This document shows, in pieces, positions 1,758 to 20,812 of a stretch of DNA of 21,955 bases; the stretch's first letter is position 1, and each line of letters starts with the position of its first letter. Source of the stretch: a virus; IMG/VR virus record IMGVR_UViG_3300046754_000073, positions 1 through 21,955 of that record, one strand, 5' to 3'. The notes beneath the pieces are model-generated. The model was not told where the DNA came from. It did not search any database and was given only the letters and a program-made list of their open reading frames with translations. The position numbers and the translations under genes were made by a program.

Positions 1758-3902
1758 ATGAAAATCGAGGCAATGGATGACGTAACAGTTCAAGGCATTA
1801 TACAAAAGGCCGTGGAAGATGCCGTTGATTTTATAGAAGCTGAAATAACTGAGCCAAGATTAAAATCACAGCGTTATTACGATGGCGAAGTTGACATAGG
1901 ATACGAAGACGGTCGCTCAAGAGTGGTAGCTACAAAATGCCGTGAAGTGGTAAAAAGTTTAAAACCATCTATCCAACGTGTTTTTCTAAGCACTGAAAAC
2001 GTTGTAGAGTTTGTTCCCAGAATGCCAGAAGACGTTCAGGTTTGTGAGCAAATGACCAAGTTTGCTAATTATAAATTTATGCAAAATAACGGCTATAGAT
2101 TGCTTAACGATGTTTTTCAAGATGCAATGGTTAAGAAAACTGGCATAGCCAAAGTAATGTTTGAAGATATTGCAAAAACTGAAGTACACGAAGCGCACAA
2201 CCTGACAGATGACGAGTTTGCTTATTTAACAGAACCCGACAATGTAACGGTTTTAGAGCATACAAAAAATTCTATAGGAACTTTAGATGAAGAAGGCATA
2301 GGCACTGAAACAATTATGCACGATGTAAAAATGAGCATCGAAATAACAAACGGTGATATTACTATAACTTCTATACCCCCAGAAGAATTTTTTGTAGATA
2401 GAAACGCTCGCAGTATTGATGACTTTTTTGTGATTGGCCACAGAACAGATATGACTATTGGCGATTTGCTTGCAATGGATTTTGACCATGAAGAAGTTCA
2501 TAACTTGCAAGGCAATATGTCAACGTTTGAAGCTGAAAGCGAGTTTGAACGTAGAAATTACGCTGTTGACGAGGACGATGATGAAAGTGCCGACCCAACA
2601 AGTAGAAAAGTCGTTGTAACAGAAGCTTACATGAAAATAGATAAAGAAGGCACTGGAAAGCCTTTAATGTATCGTTTTATTCTAGGCGGTTCTAGTTACA
2701 AAGTTCTTTCGTGTGAATTAGCAGATGAAGTGCCGTTTGCAATATTTGAAGTTGACCCCGAACCTCACGCCTTTTTCGGTAGCAGTTTGGTTGACTTAGT
2801 TATGGACGACCAAGATGCGGCAACTTCCATGCTTCGTGGCGTTTTAGATAACGTTGCGTTGACTAACAATCCTGGTCTCGAAATAGTAGATGGCCAAGTT
2901 TCAGTTGATGATTTGCTTAACAACGAAATAGGAAGAATAGTGCGAGTAAAGCAAGCGGGTTCTATTCGTGAGCAAGTTGTTCCTTTTACGGCGGGTTCAA
3001 CCCTTCCCGCCCTACAATATTTTGACCAATTAGTTGACAATAAAACAGGTATAAGCAAAGCCTCACAAGGCTTAAACGCTGATGTGTTGCAATCAGCAAG
3101 TGCAACAGCAATAGCGGCAACAATGCAAGGAGCGGCAGGCCAAGCAGAAGTAATAGCGCGAAATTTAGCAGAAGGCGGTATGCGAAGATTATTTAAACTT
3201 ATAGCGCACTGCATAATAAATAACGCAGATAAAGAAGAAATAATAAGATTAAATAATGAATTTGTTGAAGTAGACCCACGCAGTTGGAACGCTGACGCTG
3301 ATATGATTGTAAACGTTGGCATAGGAACAGGTCAGCAAGCCGAAAAATCAGCAGTGTTGCGCGAAACTTTGCAAATGCAAATGTCAGTTTGGCAACAGTA
3401 CGGAGCGCAAAATGGCTTAGTAACCATGACAAACGTTCGAAATACTTTGGCTGATTTATTAGGTTCAGTAGGTTTAAGAAACACAGACCGTTACTATTTA
3501 CCAGTAACTTTTGAAAAAGAACAAGAGTTAATAATGGCAAAACAAGAAGAAGCGCAAATGCAACAGCAAATGATGCAACAAGGTCAACAACAAACTGACC
3601 CGAACCAAGCATTTATGGCAACTGAGCAAATGAAAGCACAGACAAGGGCGCAAGTAGATATGGCCAAATTGCAACTTGACGCGCAGAAAGCGGCTAGTGA
3701 TGATAAATTTAGAATGCACGAATTAGCTATGAAAGATGATTTACAGCGTGACGAAATGGTTCAAGACTTGGCGGTTAAGGTTGCGGAAATATTGGGTAAA
3801 TATGAAACTGCGGTTGACACAACGGCAATAAAAGCCGAACAAGATAAGGTAAGACCGCATAATGAAGAAATGATGAATGGATTACAAGAAAAGAGCTATT
3901 AG
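1758..3902 (+). CDS. Portal protein (P22-like)
   Basis: A 714-residue protein close to the length of P22 portal (about 725). Portal rings form the dodecameric DNA gate at one capsid vertex and bind terminase during packaging. The N-terminal ~150 residues (YYDGEVD, then a helical stretch ending near FVPRMPEDV) and the central segment near residues 430-475 (TGISKASQG, followed by an Ala-rich helix) match the P22-type marine podovirus portals I know. The C-terminal ~120 residues are Gln/Met-rich and helical, as expected for a barrel or crown extension. The start is supported by AAGGATAA just upstream of the ATG at 1758. It is followed by the scaffold and capsid genes in the usual head-module order, and its last 26 nt overlap the next gene. 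Assignment to the portal family is firm; the precise subfamily is less so. Confidence 0.9.
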   Translation: MKIEAMDDVTVQGIIQKAVEDAVDFIEAEITEPRLKSQRYYDGEVDIGYEDGRSRVVATKCREVVKSLKPSIQRVFLSTENVVEFVPRMPEDVQVCEQMTKFANYKFMQNNGYRLLNDVFQDAMVKKTGIAKVMFEDIAKTEVHEAHNLTDDEFAYLTEPDNVTVLEHTKNSIGTLDEEGIGTETIMHDVKMSIEITNGDITITSIPPEEFFVDRNARSIDDFFVIGHRTDMTIGDLLAMDFDHEEVHNLQGNMSTFEAESEFERRNYAVDEDDDESADPTSRKVVVTEAYMKIDKEGTGKPLMYRFILGGSSYKVLSCELADEVPFAIFEVDPEPHAFFGSSLVDLVMDDQDAATSMLRGVLDNVALTNNPGLEIVDGQVSVDDLLNNEIGRIVRVKQAGSIREQVVPFTAGSTLPALQYFDQLVDNKTGISKASQGLNADVLQSASATAIAATMQGAAGQAEVIARNLAEGGMRRLFKLIAHCIINNADKEEIIRLNNEFVEVDPRSWNADADMIVNVGIGTGQQAEKSAVLRETLQMQMSVWQQYGAQNGLVTMTNVRNTLADLLGSVGLRNTDRYYLPVTFEKEQELIMAKQEEAQMQQQMMQQGQQQTDPNQAFMATEQMKAQTRAQVDMAKLQLDAQKAASDDKFRMHELAMKDDLQRDEMVQDLAVKVAEILGKYETAVDTTAIKAEQDKVRPHNEEMMNGLQEKSY

Positions 3903-9135: not shown

Positions 9136-9159
9136 GGGGGCTAACTGCCCCCCCTTTTT
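9136..9159 (+). terminator. Intrinsic terminator after endolysin
   Basis: GGGGGC at 9136-9141 pairs with GCCCCC at 9147-9152 around a 5-nt loop; two more C and a run of five T follow (9155-9159). It begins at the endolysin stop and ends the rightward late operon. The stop codon of the leftward gene at 9158 lies in the T-run, so the element also separates converging transcripts. Confidence 0.88.
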
Positions 9160-9484
9160 ATGCCGCCTTTTTGTAAGTGTTGGGGTTTACCTCTATGGCT
9201 TGCTCTTCGTAAAATTCTTTACTGCGCTCGTCCATATCGTCAAGAACGGTTTGCCATTCTGCATAAGTTCTAACGCTTCTTACAAACTCTTTATGGCCTA
9301 AATTGTTAGTGGTAACTATCGCCGCCACAAAAGCCATAGCGTCTTGCTCGCGCTCCAAACCTTGCACAACGTAATCGTCGCCACCTTTATACTTCCAACG
9401 GTGTAGCCCCTCTGCAAACGCTCCAGAACCTACTTCTGCGCCATCATTTTCTAAAATTTGTGTGCTTACAACATATACATTCAT
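9158..9484 (-). CDS. 108-aa early protein, unknown function
   Basis: A 108-residue soluble, acidic protein (MNVYVVSTQILENDGAE...), alone on its own transcript: an early-type promoter lies just upstream (9504-9560) and its stop lies in the T-run of the convergent terminator. The ribosome site GAGGATTTT, 9 nt or so before the ATG, is identical to that of the next leftward gene. The N-terminal half looks like a small alpha/beta domain (WKYKGGDDYVVQG near residue 29), followed by a long helix. I do not recognise the family. The separate promoter suggests an early takeover-type function, which is inference. Confidence 0.8.
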   Translation of the reverse strand: MNVYVVSTQILENDGAEVGSGAFAEGLHRWKYKGGDDYVVQGLEREQDAMAFVAAIVTTNNLGHKEFVRSVRTYAEWQTVLDDMDERSKEFYEEQAIEVNPNTYKKAA

Positions 9485-9503
9485 TTTTAAAATCCTCTTT
9501 TTT

Positions 9504-9560
9504 GCTTATACGTTAATTATAAATTAATAAATTGTAAATGTAAAGTATTTTTTTTGTAAA
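9504..9560 (-). promoter_or_regulatory. Early promoter A
   Basis: On the minus strand: upstream TTTACA (9555-9560), A-tract, -35 TTTACA (9539-9544), 17-nt spacer beginning TTTACAA, -10 TATAAT (9516-9521), then the box TTAACGTATAAGC (9504-9516), which overlaps the -10 by one base. It is the closest of the six to a sigma-70 consensus, and drives the 108-aa gene. Confidence 0.8.
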
Positions 9561-9604: not shown

Positions 9605-9907
9605 TTAAACATTTAATGTCATACACACTTTAGTTTCTGCTACTTTAACCGCCATTCTAATAGTGTCAAAAGGTCCACACTCTTCCAATACTTTTGTATT
9701 GTTATCGTGTTCGTAAATTGTAGTAAGGTATCCTCCTTCAGCAAAATCTTCTATGGTAACATACTGTGCGGCATTGCCGCCTTCAGAAACTGGCTTTGCC
9801 TTCCAAAACGTGTTTATGTGATGTCCGTCAATATACTCGTCAACTTGGTCAAAACGCATAATACCATAATCAAATTTTGCGGGTTGTTCTTTAAAATAGT
9901 TACTCAT
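9605..9907 (-). CDS. 100-aa early protein, unknown function
   Basis: A 100-residue soluble protein (MSNYFKEQPAKFDYGIM...) with an aromatic, beta-rich N-terminal two-thirds (GGYLTTIYEHDN near residue 58) and a C-terminal helix containing Cys. It has its own promoter (9927-9983) and its own terminator (9575-9600), so it is a single-gene transcript. The leader from the promoter box to the ATG is nearly identical to that of the 108-aa gene. The family is not recognised. Confidence 0.8.
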   Translation of the reverse strand: MSNYFKEQPAKFDYGIMRFDQVDEYIDGHHINTFWKAKPVSEGGNAAQYVTIEDFAEGGYLTTIYEHDNNTKVLEECGPFDTIRMAVKVAETKVCMTLNV

Positions 9908-9926
9908 TTTTAAAATCCTCTTTTTT

Positions 9927-9983
9927 GCTTATATGTAAACATTACACTATAAATTTGTAAGTGTAAAGCACTTTTTTTATAAT
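9927..9983 (-). promoter_or_regulatory. Early promoter B
   Basis: -35 TTTACA (9962-9967), 17-nt spacer beginning CTTACAA, then a weak -10 (TAATGT, 9939-9944) overlapping by one base the box TTTACATATAAGC (9927-9939). The upstream hexamer at 9978-9983 is degenerate (ATTATA). The weak -10 with a perfect box suggests the box contributes to recognition or control. Confidence 0.65.
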
Positions 9984-10273: not shown

Positions 10274-10549
10274 TTAGTGTCGTTTAATATCCTCCCCACG
10301 AATATCCCAAGGAACTTTTGGTAAAGTTATTCTTTGGTTTGCTACTTTTTTAGCATCTGTTTCTATAGAAGTTTTGCCGCCATACTGTTTGGCAAATTCA
10401 ACGCCGAACCTAAATGCGTGAGTTCTTAGCGAGTTTGTATCTATGCCCATTGCCCTAGAGGCTTCTACTATTGTTAGGTGGCTGAATAATTCAAAAAGTT
10501 CTTTTACTTCTATAGCCTGCTTTTTTCTTAATTTCTCCCAAGGTTTCAT
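10274..10549 (-). CDS. Putative HTH DNA-binding protein
   Basis: A 91-residue basic protein. Residues ~8-28 form a Glu/Leu helix, and TIVEASRAMGIDTNSLRTHAF (~26-46) has the spacing of a helix-turn-helix, with EASRAMGI as the first helix and TNSLRTHAF as the recognition helix. The C-terminus is basic and disordered. This suggests a small DNA-binding or regulatory protein. Its ATG overlaps the TGA of the upstream 59-aa gene (4 nt). The HTH assignment is by eye and the family is not named. Confidence 0.65.
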   Translation of the reverse strand: MKPWEKLRKKQAIEVKELFELFSHLTIVEASRAMGIDTNSLRTHAFRFGVEFAKQYGGKTSIETDAKKVANQRITLPKVPWDIRGEDIKRH

Positions 10550-10725
10550 ATTCTAACTCCTTCCTCCCTTAGTTTTTTAATTAATACCGCCATAGCTTCT
10601 TTTGCTTGCCTATAGTCTTGTTTAACTGATGGCGGTGCTTCTGGTAGTAAGGCTAGAGGTTCTAACCTATCTATATCGCGTTTTATACTGTCTCGAGTGT
10701 CCCTATCTTCTGGTTTAATTTCCAT
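10546..10725 (-). CDS. 59-aa helical protein, unknown function
   Basis: An ATG at 10725 preceded by AAGAGG gives 59 codons ending in a TGA that overlaps the next start (ATGA). The product (MEIKPEDRDTRDSIKRDI..., with a PLALLPEAPPS turn near residue 23) is charged and two-helical. Good ribosome site, coupling overlap and coding-like composition support it. No function is assigned. Confidence 0.75.
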   Translation of the reverse strand: MEIKPEDRDTRDSIKRDIDRLEPLALLPEAPPSVKQDYRQAKEAMAVLIKKLREEGVRI

Positions 10726-11924: not shown

Positions 11925-11981
11925 ACTTATATGTAAGGTATAATATATAAAAATGTAAATGTAAATAGTTTTTTTTGTAAT
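11925..11981 (-). promoter_or_regulatory. Early promoter C
   Basis: Upstream ATTACA (11976-11981) and an A-tract, -35 TTTACA (11960-11965), 17-nt spacer beginning TTTACAT, -10 TATACC (11937-11942), overlapping by one base the box CTTACATATAAGT (11925-11937). It drives the operon starting at 11905, which may run to about 9998. Confidence 0.72.
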
Positions 11982-12994
11982 TATGCTATTTTTTTTGTAG
12001 GTGTCCAATACTGCTTTTTAAAGCCAAATGCGGGGTGGCCTGCCCAATACCCTTCTATCCATGTGCGCCACTGGCCATCCCTTAAAACAGATTTAGGGTG
12101 ATGTTGTTCGGCTCTTTTCCAATGGCCTTTATTAAAGTGTAGCGGCATTTTGTGAAAAGTTTCATCAAAAGGTTCTCTAGCATTAACAGGTTTATCAACA
12201 TTCCAAGAAACTCTATGCCAAGCATCTACAGCGAACCCCATGCCCCTATTCAACCCCCTGCGCCGTTGTCGGTTGCCTGAGGGCGTGGTTTTAACAAACC
12301 GTGGCTTGTTAATCACTTTAAGAAAAGAAGCAACGTGTCTAAGCCATGTAGAGTCCGCATCCCGCGCCTCTTGTGTTTGGTTTTTAAAGGTTTCTAAATC
12401 GTGGCTAAATTTAAAAACATCAATTTTGCAATCGCAATCGTCCTGTGGGCAAGCGGTCTGAAAACATTCTATTGCGCCCATTGGGTGCGGCATGGTGTTT
12501 GGGCTGAGCCAACAAGATAAAGCCACAAAATTTTTATAAAAAAGTTCTGGGTATTCTACTTCTTCGTCATCATTATGTTCAACATAACCCACAACAGGTT
12601 TATTATTTTTTATTGCCGCAGTTTCGGGTATTATTTCGCCATTTACCTTTTTAGTCATAGGCATCAGTAATATTAAATTATCTTGTGTGTTTTCCATAAC
12701 AGAGTCTGGTTCATGTTGTCCGTTATGAATAACTTTGGTTTTAACATCTACAAAAAGCCCTATAGCGGGTGCAGGCAAAATAGTGTCTATAGAAGGTGGT
12801 ATGCTAAAGTCTGCGCCATATTCTGAAAGGCTTGCCTCGTAGGTGTATTCTGATATTCCCCTGCAATCATAATAGTGAACATTTCTAAGCAGTTTTCCTA
12901 TTTCTGGAACTGTTACTGAAGAAGTTCCAATTTGCACATCAGGCCAAGCATCGTAATATTTAGCTAATTGTTCAACGTATTCCATCATTTCCAT
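11981..12994 (-). CDS. 337-aa protein, unknown function
   Basis: The largest unassigned early gene. GGGAGA lies before the ATG at 12994. The N-terminal half (1-170) is mixed alpha/beta. A Cys cluster, CFQTACPQDDCDC, lies near residues 175-187 and could bind metal. The C-terminal ~100 residues contain a His/Trp/Arg-rich block: MPLHFNKGHWKRAEQHH, then WIEGYWAGHPAFGFKKQYW. I have the impression that this ending recurs in unannotated phage proteins as an HxxxGHxRxxxxHHP...W-type motif, possibly nucleic-acid-binding, but I cannot name a family. It follows the DUF932 gene after a hairpin and may share its promoter. Confidence 0.8.
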   Translation of the reverse strand: MEMMEYVEQLAKYYDAWPDVQIGTSSVTVPEIGKLLRNVHYYDCRGISEYTYEASLSEYGADFSIPPSIDTILPAPAIGLFVDVKTKVIHNGQHEPDSVMENTQDNLILLMPMTKKVNGEIIPETAAIKNNKPVVGYVEHNDDEEVEYPELFYKNFVALSCWLSPNTMPHPMGAIECFQTACPQDDCDCKIDVFKFSHDLETFKNQTQEARDADSTWLRHVASFLKVINKPRFVKTTPSGNRQRRRGLNRGMGFAVDAWHRVSWNVDKPVNAREPFDETFHKMPLHFNKGHWKRAEQHHPKSVLRDGQWRTWIEGYWAGHPAFGFKKQYWTPTKKIA

Positions 12995-13046
12995 AATATT
13001 TCTCCCTAAATTTATTCAATAAAAACAGGCACTTACCCAGGTCTTT

Positions 13047-18948: not shown

Positions 18949-19399
18949 TGAACTTAAAGAAAAAACGTTAAAAATGTTGGGGCGGTTAAATGCTCCTAGA
19001 GCGGTGCAAAATAACGATGAAAACATGAAAAGCGAAGCTGAGTTTCTATGCAACCAAATTATAAAATTAGCACCAAGCAAAAATTATATTGAATGGTTTC
19101 AAGACTTTGAGCAAAACATACTTTCTAATTTAGAAACTAGGACTTGGCCAACTGCAAAAGAAATTAGCAAATCAGCAAAAGCAATAGCACCAAAGCGGCC
19201 TGAATTTAGGGAACTATCACCTGAAAAATACGAACCCAACGAACTTAAAATTAACGCCGATAGAATAAATAACGGTGAGCCAGTAGGCGAAAATTATGTT
19301 TTTGGTTCGCTTGCTGAACAAATGGTAAGGGTTGGCCTTGTTGCAGAAAAACAACTACAACCATATAAAGAATACTTGAAACGTATGAAAAATGATTAG
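18938..19399 (+). CDS. Putative helicase-loader / lambda P-position protein
   Basis: A 153-residue charged helical protein (MRNNELKEKTLKMLG...) encoded directly after the O-like initiator with an 11-nt overlap. The central ETRTWPTAKEISKSAKAI segment (~66-83) recurs in phage replication proteins of unknown type, and the C-terminus (QPYKEYLKRMKND) is basic. There is no Walker motif, so it is not a DnaC-type ATPase. Position alone suggests a helicase loader or primosome adaptor in the P or DnaT sense. A start beyond 18938 is not supported: no later in-frame ATG lies near the beginning. Confidence 0.6.
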   Translation: MRNNELKEKTLKMLGRLNAPRAVQNNDENMKSEAEFLCNQIIKLAPSKNYIEWFQDFEQNILSNLETRTWPTAKEISKSAKAIAPKRPEFRELSPEKYEPNELKINADRINNGEPVGENYVFGSLAEQMVRVGLVAEKQLQPYKEYLKRMKND

Positions 19400-19410
19400 A
19401 TTATGTTACA

Positions 19411-19524
19411 CAGGTAGCGAGGTCACGAACTCCTCCCTGTTCGACATTGTTCCGCTTTATACTGCTTTTTTACGGACTCAATACCTCGCCAACTTTCCCC
19501 TGCCTTGCGCGGGGGATTTTTTTT
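19411..19524 (+). ncRNA. Putative structured small RNA with three-way junction
   Basis: A 159-nt gene-free interval folds by inspection. P1: GCGAGGT (19417-19423) with ACCTCGC (19483-19489), 7 bp. P2: CGAAC (19426-19430) with GTTCG (19439-19443) around the loop TCCTCCCT. P3: ATTG and TCCG (19446-19449, 19451-19454) with CGGA and CAAT (19473-19476, 19479-19482), and an 18-nt loop. Junction strands are CA, AC and zero nt, so P3 and P1 can stack. A terminator follows at once. A possible promoter, TTGAAA (19376-19381), 17 nt, GATTAT (19399-19404), would start the RNA near 19411. It is tRNA-sized but has no T-arm. Could also be a riboswitch-like or antitermination element. Confidence 0.5.
19497..19524 (+). 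terminator. Strong intrinsic terminator before the methyltransferase gene
   Basis: CCCCTGC (19497-19503) pairs with GCGGGG (19509-19515) via a G-U and a loop of about 5 nt, giving a 7-bp stem, followed by A and eight T (19517-19524). It is the best terminator in the window. It ends the replication operon and the RNA at 19411, separating them from the packaging genes. Confidence 0.9.
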
Positions 19525-19532
19525 GTTATAAT
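19505..19532 (+). promoter_or_regulatory. Extended -10 promoter for the methyltransferase/terminase operon
   Basis: TGTTATAAT (TG at 19524-19525, TATAAT at 19527-19532) is a perfect extended -10. The best -35 is weak (TTGCGC, 19505-19510, 16-nt spacer) and lies in the terminator hairpin. Extended -10 promoters need little -35. The start would be near 19539, about 20 nt before the ATG. Confidence 0.6.
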
Positions 19533-19558
19533 GAATAAATAAACGAAAGGGCGCACCC

Positions 19559-20812
19559 ATGAGTAATGGACGGTCTTGGCCTGCTGATAAGGTTGAGCGA
19601 AGGGACATTAAAACGCTGATACCTTATGCACGAAACAGTCGCACCCATAGCGATGAGCAAATAACACAAATTGCGGCAAGTATAAAAGAATGGGGTTTTA
19701 CTAATCCTATTTTGGTTGATGCCGATAACGAAATTATTGCGGGGCATGGTAGGCTCCTAGCGGCAAAAAAGCTTAATTTACAAGAGGTTCCGTGTATTTT
19801 GGCCGATGGTTGGTCGGAAGCACAAAAGAAAGCTTATGTAATAGCAGATAACAAACTGGCCCTAAATGCAGGGTGGGACACTGATATGTTATCAATTGAG
19901 TTTTCAGAACTTAAAGATTTAGAATTTGATTTAAGCCTAACGGGGTTTGATGCCGACGAGTTGGCTAAATTATTACAAGAGCCAGATAATGAAGGCTTGA
20001 CCGATGAGGACGATGTTCCAGAGCCTCCGCAAAAACCTAAAACGGTTGAAGGTGATATTTGGGTTTTAGGCAATCACAGATTAATGTGTGGCGATAGCAC
20101 CGACATAGATGCGGTTGAAAATTTAATGGACGGTTCAAAAGCAGATATGGTTTTTACCGACCCGCCGTATAACGCTGATTACAAAAGCCGTGGCTCAAAC
20201 GAACTTTTAAGGCAGGGTATAAAAAACGATGCAATGAGCGACGATAAATTTGAGGATTTCATAAAAGGTTTTTTATCAACAATTTATGCAAACGTTAAAA
20301 GTGGAGCGGCATATTATATTTGTTGCAAATGGAAAGATAGCTATCCTCGGTTTTATTTAAACCTGTCAACTTCGGGTATTAATGTTTCAAGTTGTATTGT
20401 TTGGAACAAAGGCTCTGGGGGTATGGGTTGGCAAGATTACCGTTACCAATATGAATTTATAATATATGGTTTCAAAGAAGGGTCAGCGCATTCGTGGTAT
20501 GGTGGTCGCACGGAGACTGACATATGGGAGCAAAAAAGAGAGGCGCGGCAAAAATACGTTCACCCAACGCAAAAACCTGTGGAGCTTATCGAGAGGGCAT
20601 TAAACAACAGTAGTAAGGCCGACGATGTTATTTTAGATTTATTCGGGGGTTCTGGGTCAACGTTGGTGGCTTGTGAAAAGATTCATCGATACGCCAGACT
20701 TATGGAACTCGATCCCCAATATTGTGATGTTATTATTAAACGTTGGCAAGATTACACAGGGCAAGAAGCAATAAACGAACAAACAGGCAAAACTTATGCA
20801 GAGTCAAACTAA
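19559..20812 (+). CDS. ParB-domain / DNA methyltransferase fusion
   Basis: A 417-residue two-domain protein. The N-terminal ParB/Srx-like domain (~12-110) has NSRTHSDEQI (26-35), the GHGR motif (62-65) and AYVIADNKLALNAGWD (92-107). The C-terminal class-beta amino methyltransferase (~165-400) has motif IV DPPY (201-204), target-recognition region between, then HPTQKP (335-340) and the SAM-binding FGGSGST (362-368), i.e. the permuted beta order. DPPY favours N6-adenine, though N4-cytosine is not excluded. This fusion is common in alphaproteobacterial phages beside terminase; it probably marks phage DNA against restriction or for packaging. AAAGGGCG precedes the ATG. Target sequence cannot be read. 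Confidence 0.92.
   Translation: MSNGRSWPADKVERRDIKTLIPYARNSRTHSDEQITQIAASIKEWGFTNPILVDADNEIIAGHGRLLAAKKLNLQEVPCILADGWSEAQKKAYVIADNKLALNAGWDTDMLSIEFSELKDLEFDLSLTGFDADELAKLLQEPDNEGLTDEDDVPEPPQKPKTVEGDIWVLGNHRLMCGDSTDIDAVENLMDGSKADMVFTDPPYNADYKSRGSNELLRQGIKNDAMSDDKFEDFIKGFLSTIYANVKSGAAYYICCKWKDSYPRFYLNLSTSGINVSSCIVWNKGSGGMGWQDYRYQYEFIIYGFKEGSAHSWYGGRTETDIWEQKREARQKYVHPTQKPVELIERALNNSSKADDVILDLFGGSGSTLVACEKIHRYARLMELDPQYCDVIIKRWQDYTGQEAINEQTGKTYAESN

Follow-up and report, generated by a model that had tools for sequence, protein, structure and literature searches.

The window analyzed here, meaning the whole stretch of DNA examined, is a 21,955-base viral contig with a G+C content of 38.9%. Its left part carries structural genes, among them an SU10-type portal, a capsid, and a GTA-type holin, and its early genes, which include one for SSB, run leftward. 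The rightward genes are, in order, a Cro-like regulator, an O-like replication initiator, a 153-aa gene with no family match, an RNA gene of about 115 nt, a ParB-N/N6-N4 methyltransferase, and TerS. The placement of the RNA given in an earlier note on this DNA was correct: it lies at the border of the replication and packaging operons, between a replication gene and the DNA methyltransferase/terminase operon. The best isolate matches of the portal are from phages of Octadecabacter (45%), Sinorhizobium (35.5%), and Pelagibacter (31%), and an alphaproteobacterial host is therefore likely. The coordinates of the RNA gene, the adjacent promoters, and the candidate targets are listed in Table 1.

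Two further features of the window are recorded here. The start context of the methyltransferase gene, GAAAGGGCGCACCCATG (19545-19561), is kept in the distant phages L016, L017, and L040 and reads AAAGGTTGCACCCATG in L021; it possibly forms a small hairpin directly 5' of the start codon. On the minus strand, an identical 25-nt leader, ATAAGCAAAAAAGAGGATTTTAAAA, occurs at 9485-9509 and 9908-9932, each time upstream of a different small gene (9158-9484 and 9605-9907, respectively).

Table 1. Positions of the RNA gene, its parts, the neighboring promoters, and the candidate targets in the window
Feature	Position	Strand	Description
sRNA gene	19410-19524	+	Putative transcript of ~115 nt; start placed by promoter spacing
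Putative sRNA promoter	19376-19404	+	-35 TTGAAA (19376-19381), 17-nt spacer, -10 GATTAT (19399-19404); 9/12 consensus
P1 5' strand, GCGAGGU	19417-19423	+	Pairs with 19483-19489, 7 bp
P1 3' strand, ACCUCGC	19483-19489	+	Partner of 19417-19423
P2 hairpin, CGAAC-UCCUCCCU-GUUCG	19426-19443	+	19426-19430/19439-19443, 5 bp, 8-nt loop
P2 loop, UCCUCCCU	19431-19438	+	Anti-Shine-Dalgarno seed; invariant in core set
P3 hairpin	19446-19482	+	U-rich loop; 4+4 pairs: 19446-19449/19479-19482, 19451-19454/19473-19476
Conserved P3-loop segment, UACUGCUUUUU	19460-19472	+	Inside U-rich loop
Possible competing fold	19410-19441	+	ACAGG (19410-19414) and GAGG (19419-19422) base-pair with CCUGU/CCUC in the region of the P2 loop and would hide the seed
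Rho-independent terminator	19496-19524	+	8-bp stem 19496-19516, loop CUUGC, U8
Methyltransferase/terminase operon promoter	19505-19532	+	Possible -35 TTGCGC, 16-nt spacer, -10 TATAAT (19527-19532)
Candidate target, 91-aa gene, ribosome-binding site AAGGGAGGAAGGAG	10274-10576 (gene 10274-10549)	-	8-nt perfect complement to loop
Candidate target, 337-aa gene, ribosome-binding site TTTAGGGAGAAATATTATG	11981-13014 (gene 11981-12994)	-	(A)GGGAG kept in 7/7 homologs examined

Structure and covariation of the RNA

Refolding recovered every element of the three-way junction (P1, P2, and P3) and terminator described in the earlier note, except that the gap between P1 and the terminator is 6 nt and not 7. 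The 114 nt at 19411-19524 have a minimum free energy of -36 kcal/mol (z = -4.06), which none of 200 shuffles equaled; once the terminator is removed, the other 85 nt have a z-score of -2.57, and 1 of 200 shuffles was as good. The structured RNA at this locus is real and above chance. A tRNA-like reading was ruled out using ARAGORN, which found 0 tRNA or tmRNA genes. The interval has no conserved open reading frame; the mechanical 61-aa frame on the minus strand (19423-19608) is broken in homologs.

Searches with DNA patterns, the methyltransferase, and the gene upstream of the RNA yielded 19 distinct core versions of the RNA and one further version, L234, from marine IMG/VR contigs. These roughly 20 homologs share one fold, with compensatory changes in each of its helices, P1-P3, and the junction is common to nearly all of them; in L114, an alternative fold is favored or tied. 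At one P1 pair of a MAFFT alignment, 9/18 homologs have C-G and 8/18 have U-A; at one P2 pair, nine have G-C and nine have A-U. Because these P1 and P2 changes divide the core set almost identically, independent covariation events are few, and each of the two helices is supported largely by one two-sided change. L234 carries a third version of the P2 stem (UCCAAC/GUUGGA). The arms of P3 are the most variable, and they pair better with their own partners (mean of -8.3 kcal/mol) than with swapped ones (-6.2 kcal/mol); 0 of 20000 arm-swap permutations matched the own-partner pairing. In a model-fitted alignment, which is built on the structure and leans towards covariation, every covariation measure exceeded all 500 shuffles and every slid register. 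The independent MAFFT alignment gave covariation above controls in most measures. The check proposed earlier, a search of related phages for covarying pairs, thus found P1-P3 re-formed by compensatory changes, in agreement with the suggestions that this is a new structured RNA and a small RNA.

The P3 loop contains the conserved motif UACUGCUUUUUU, and the diverged L247 also keeps ACTGCTTTTTT. This motif is a possible Hfq site or second pairing site. A complement of the motif within the 337-aa gene (12009-12019) was taken as a chance match, since its AAGCAGTAT form is missing in L255, L257, and L258.

The anti-Shine-Dalgarno loop and its recurrence

The earlier note made no mention of the P2 loop, which is UCCUCCCU in every core sequence while the P2 stems differ in sequence. 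UCCUCCCU is complementary to the extended Shine-Dalgarno (SD) sequence AGGGAGGA and is similar to the 3' terminus of 16S rRNA. Such an anti-SD (aSD) loop is able to pair with a large number of SD sequences in the host, which would explain its invariance.

Hairpins of the form AAC-UCCUCCCU-GUU with terminators and unrelated stems are also present in other phage contigs. In L104 and L107, the hairpin follows a Mu gpT-like capsid gene; in L198, it lies between terminase and portal genes; and in L125 and L184/L206, it separates primase-like from structural genes, with gene names in this last setting assigned by eye. We examined 84 non-core viral occurrences of the 14-mer AACTCCTCCCTGTT, split by stem length. 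A terminator was found 3' of 6/18 occurrences with a stem of at least 5 bp, compared with 1/66 of those with shorter stems (Fisher P = 0.0003); when related pairs were merged, the former count became 4/16 (P = 0.005). On the opposite strand, terminators accompanied 0/84 occurrences. No aSD hairpin was detected 3' of the capsid gene in MinM2, DSL-LC04, and CRP-901, which are relatives of L107, and a descriptor search of Octadecabacter virus 2, the best portal relative, yielded no aSD hairpin with a terminator. A BLASTN search of GenBank phages with the element returned a sole match of 33 nt, at chance level, in a Lactococcus phage. The pattern GAGGTN{2,4}AACTCCTCCCTGTT matched twice in bacterial genomes (Atopobiaceae and Terrimicrobiaceae), both times without a downstream terminator, and no host copy was therefore found.

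More distant phages carry other RNAs with C-rich loops at the methyltransferase locus (CUCCCUCCCU in L016/L017/L019 and UUCCUCCC in L030), and L243 and L247 carry C-rich-loop RNAs downstream of the 153-aa gene. When all 5-mers in hairpin loops upstream of methyltransferase genes were considered, CTCCC was among the top words, in few cases (4/41). In the phage contigs L140 and L152, GTAAAAAC-TCCTCCCT-GTTTTTAC hairpins precede a long-looped stem that resembles a terminator but failed the strict terminator criterion. In L104, the Rfam RNA Mu-gpT-DE (60.5 bits; 11934-11986, minus strand) lies just 3' of the UCCUCCCU hairpin and terminator, placing an aSD hairpin next to this previously published orphan RNA motif. 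The contig L198 also encodes two type II hammerhead ribozymes (2230-2304 and 3773-3839, minus strand).

The window had no match in Rfam at gathering thresholds. With permissive thresholds, the best match was anti-hemB (RF02837; E = 0.0022, 22.3 bits against a gathering threshold of 49.5), aligned on the CUCCUCCCUG loop and terminator. The suhB/mmgR model (RF00519; E = 0.18, 17.1 bits against 41) aligned to the 3' half, with the aSD segment outside the alignment. Anti-hemB, from Burkholderia, resembles the phage RNA in having a hairpin with a CUCCUCCCUG loop and a terminator, but it is a cellular gene and lacks the three-way junction. suhB/mmgR, or alpha-r8, which includes SisA-D of Caulobacter, likewise has an aSD motif and a terminator; SisA-D share a common aSD 10-mer (PMC12559287).

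Another close parallel is the alphaproteobacterial cuckoo/alpha-r14 group, in which NfeR1 base-pairs through its CCUCCUCCC loops with ribosome-binding sites and so silences the mRNAs (PMC10746234) and the loops of SmelA075/A099 carry the same motif (PMC3927594). Like these RNAs, the phage RNA has a C-rich aSD in a hairpin loop, variable stems, and a length in the range of ~115-123 nt (PMC10746234, PMC3927594). In contrast, it is phage-encoded, has unrelated stems, and presents a single aSD loop in a three-way junction, whereas cuckoo RNAs have three (or four) separate aSD hairpins. Of the cuckoo motif it contains UCCUCCCU (CUCCUCCCU with the closing C), and the full 9-nt CCUCCUCCC is absent. 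We therefore do not class it as a cuckoo member, given its one aSD loop in a junction and Rfam neighbors that score below threshold, although by analogy we infer a cuckoo-type action. The phage sRNAs lambda 6S, PreS, VpdS, and OOP are short, and several act on host or phage mRNAs; no aSD-loop phage sRNA is described alongside them in the part of the source cited here (PMC12197685). Our search of the open-licence literature found no description of a phage-encoded aSD-loop sRNA. We regard this RNA as representing a new family of anti-Shine-Dalgarno sRNAs that are encoded by phages.

Promoters and a possible gating fold

The weak promoter predicted earlier just before P1 is present and overlaps the 3' end of the upstream gene. 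Since a scan returned one match where 1.8 were expected by chance in shuffles, the match alone is not significant, and the promoter is accepted solely on the strength of its conservation: all homologs retain the -35, and the -10 is a perfect TATAAT in L021 and degraded in L085. At the other end of the RNA, the TATAAT directly 3' of the U-tract is found in nearly all homologs and also in the junction-less relatives L024 and L028. TTGCGC, a possible -35 as read from the sequence, falls within the loop and stem of the sRNA terminator, 16 nt before this TATAAT, so the terminator and the downstream operon promoter appear to overlap.

Folding of the first 39 nt, corresponding to a nascent piece of the RNA, predicted a loop-hiding fold in the core sequences tested. 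In the full-length RNA, the forced loop-hiding fold was 0-5.9 kcal/mol less stable than the loop-exposed fold. L243 and L247 have ACUGG and CCAG(U) in place of ACAGG and CCUGU, which is a compensatory change. These models suggest a possible co-transcriptional switch that hides the aSD loop.

Proposed function and alternative explanations

We consider it likely that the RNA is a phage-encoded, trans-acting sRNA that pairs with SD regions and blocks translation. Its transcription would start at a dedicated promoter where the replication operon ends and stop at a dedicated terminator, and the three-way junction would present the P2 hairpin with UCCUCCCU single-stranded. The loop would then pair with the purine-rich SD regions of mRNAs, covering the ribosome-binding site, and would probably promote mRNA decay too, as the CCUCCUCCC loops of NfeR1 do. 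In this way, chosen host or phage messages are probably turned down at translation during infection.

The most likely targets would be several host messages together with early phage genes that have AGGGAG(GA) sites; within the phage, early genes whose ribosome-binding sites read AGGGAGGA/AGGGAG are the best candidates. The site of the 91-aa gene (AGGGAGGAAGGAG) has the strongest predicted loop pairing in the phage (-15.9 kcal/mol); it overlaps the end of the upstream coding sequence, and its full complement is present in 9/14 relatives. The site of the 337-aa gene (AGGGAGAAA) ranks second (-11.3 kcal/mol). A close relative of the candidate target gene is present on IMG contig 2778261329. The candidate SD sequences are imperfectly conserved, with exceptions in L255, L258, and L260. 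Among relatives, no co-evolution of loop and target SD was found, and the loop never varies; late phage genes have no clear lack of loop-matching SD sequences. These target predictions are weak because an aSD sequence matches almost any SD.

The location of the RNA at the early/late border, its terminator immediately before the operon, and its own upstream promoter would also suit a cis-acting leader, either a late leader of the lambda 6S/tR' kind or an attenuator gating read-through into the methyltransferase/terminase operon. Its placement is similar to that of lambda 6S RNA. However, the downstream operon is served by a separate TATAAT just past the U-tract, the terminator and this TATAAT persist in L024 and L028, no antiterminator pairing with the terminator stem was seen, and UCCUCCCU hairpins with terminators occur at unrelated loci as well, so we regard a cis-acting leader as unlikely. 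Attenuation of the methyltransferase is disfavored because L024 keeps the terminator and downstream promoter without the junction. For that reason, and for want of an Rfam match, the riboswitch-like attenuator of a SAM-dependent methyltransferase raised in the earlier note is unsupported: SAM and other riboswitch models gave no gathering match on the window and none at E ≤ 5. The other suggestions made there, an HK022 put-like element and a phi29-like packaging RNA, fared no better. HK022 put consists of two tandem stem-loops at the start of the early transcript that modify polymerase to pass later terminators; here, the junction ends in its own terminator, and a new promoter follows. Rfam includes a phage pRNA model, and the phi29 packaging RNA gave no match at gathering or permissive thresholds. 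Only the neighborhood (TerS and the methyltransferase) speaks for a packaging RNA, put-like element, or metabolite riboswitch. With no gathering-level match in the whole Rfam library and a loop hairpin that recurs elsewhere in phages, near a capsid gene, terminase/portal, or primase, we give these readings almost no credence.

The loop could instead act as a sponge or decoy that captures another RNA, such as a host sRNA with an SD-like sequence, or a protein, and not mRNA ribosome-binding sites. Phage-encoded sponges are known, with AgvB and AsxR given as examples in the part of PMC12559287 cited here, and the U-rich P3 loop could bind Hfq. However, the unpaired sequence that is conserved matches an aSD exactly, and the data suggest no non-SD partner, which makes a sponge improbable. 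A large share of the folding energy comes from the terminator, as would be expected if the locus were simply a strong terminator with incidental upstream structure and an RNA without function. The compensatory changes, the invariant 8-nt loop, and a fold that beats shuffles even without the terminator render that explanation very improbable.

Beyond the trans-acting sRNA that we favor, we tentatively raise a broader scenario, which we think may well not hold. Unrelated phage lineages would carry interchangeable aSD-loop sRNAs that mimic host aSD sRNAs and reprogram translation at the switch from early to late, with the loop gated in this family by the 5' ACAGG...GAGG fold.

Phage redirection of host translation is known mostly through proteins. 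If our interpretation is correct, a compact RNA copying the anti-SD of the ribosome would be a simple, general selector of translated messages, and it would provide a link between the biology of phages and a large alphaproteobacterial class of sRNAs. The loop sequence makes such RNAs searchable and readily tested.
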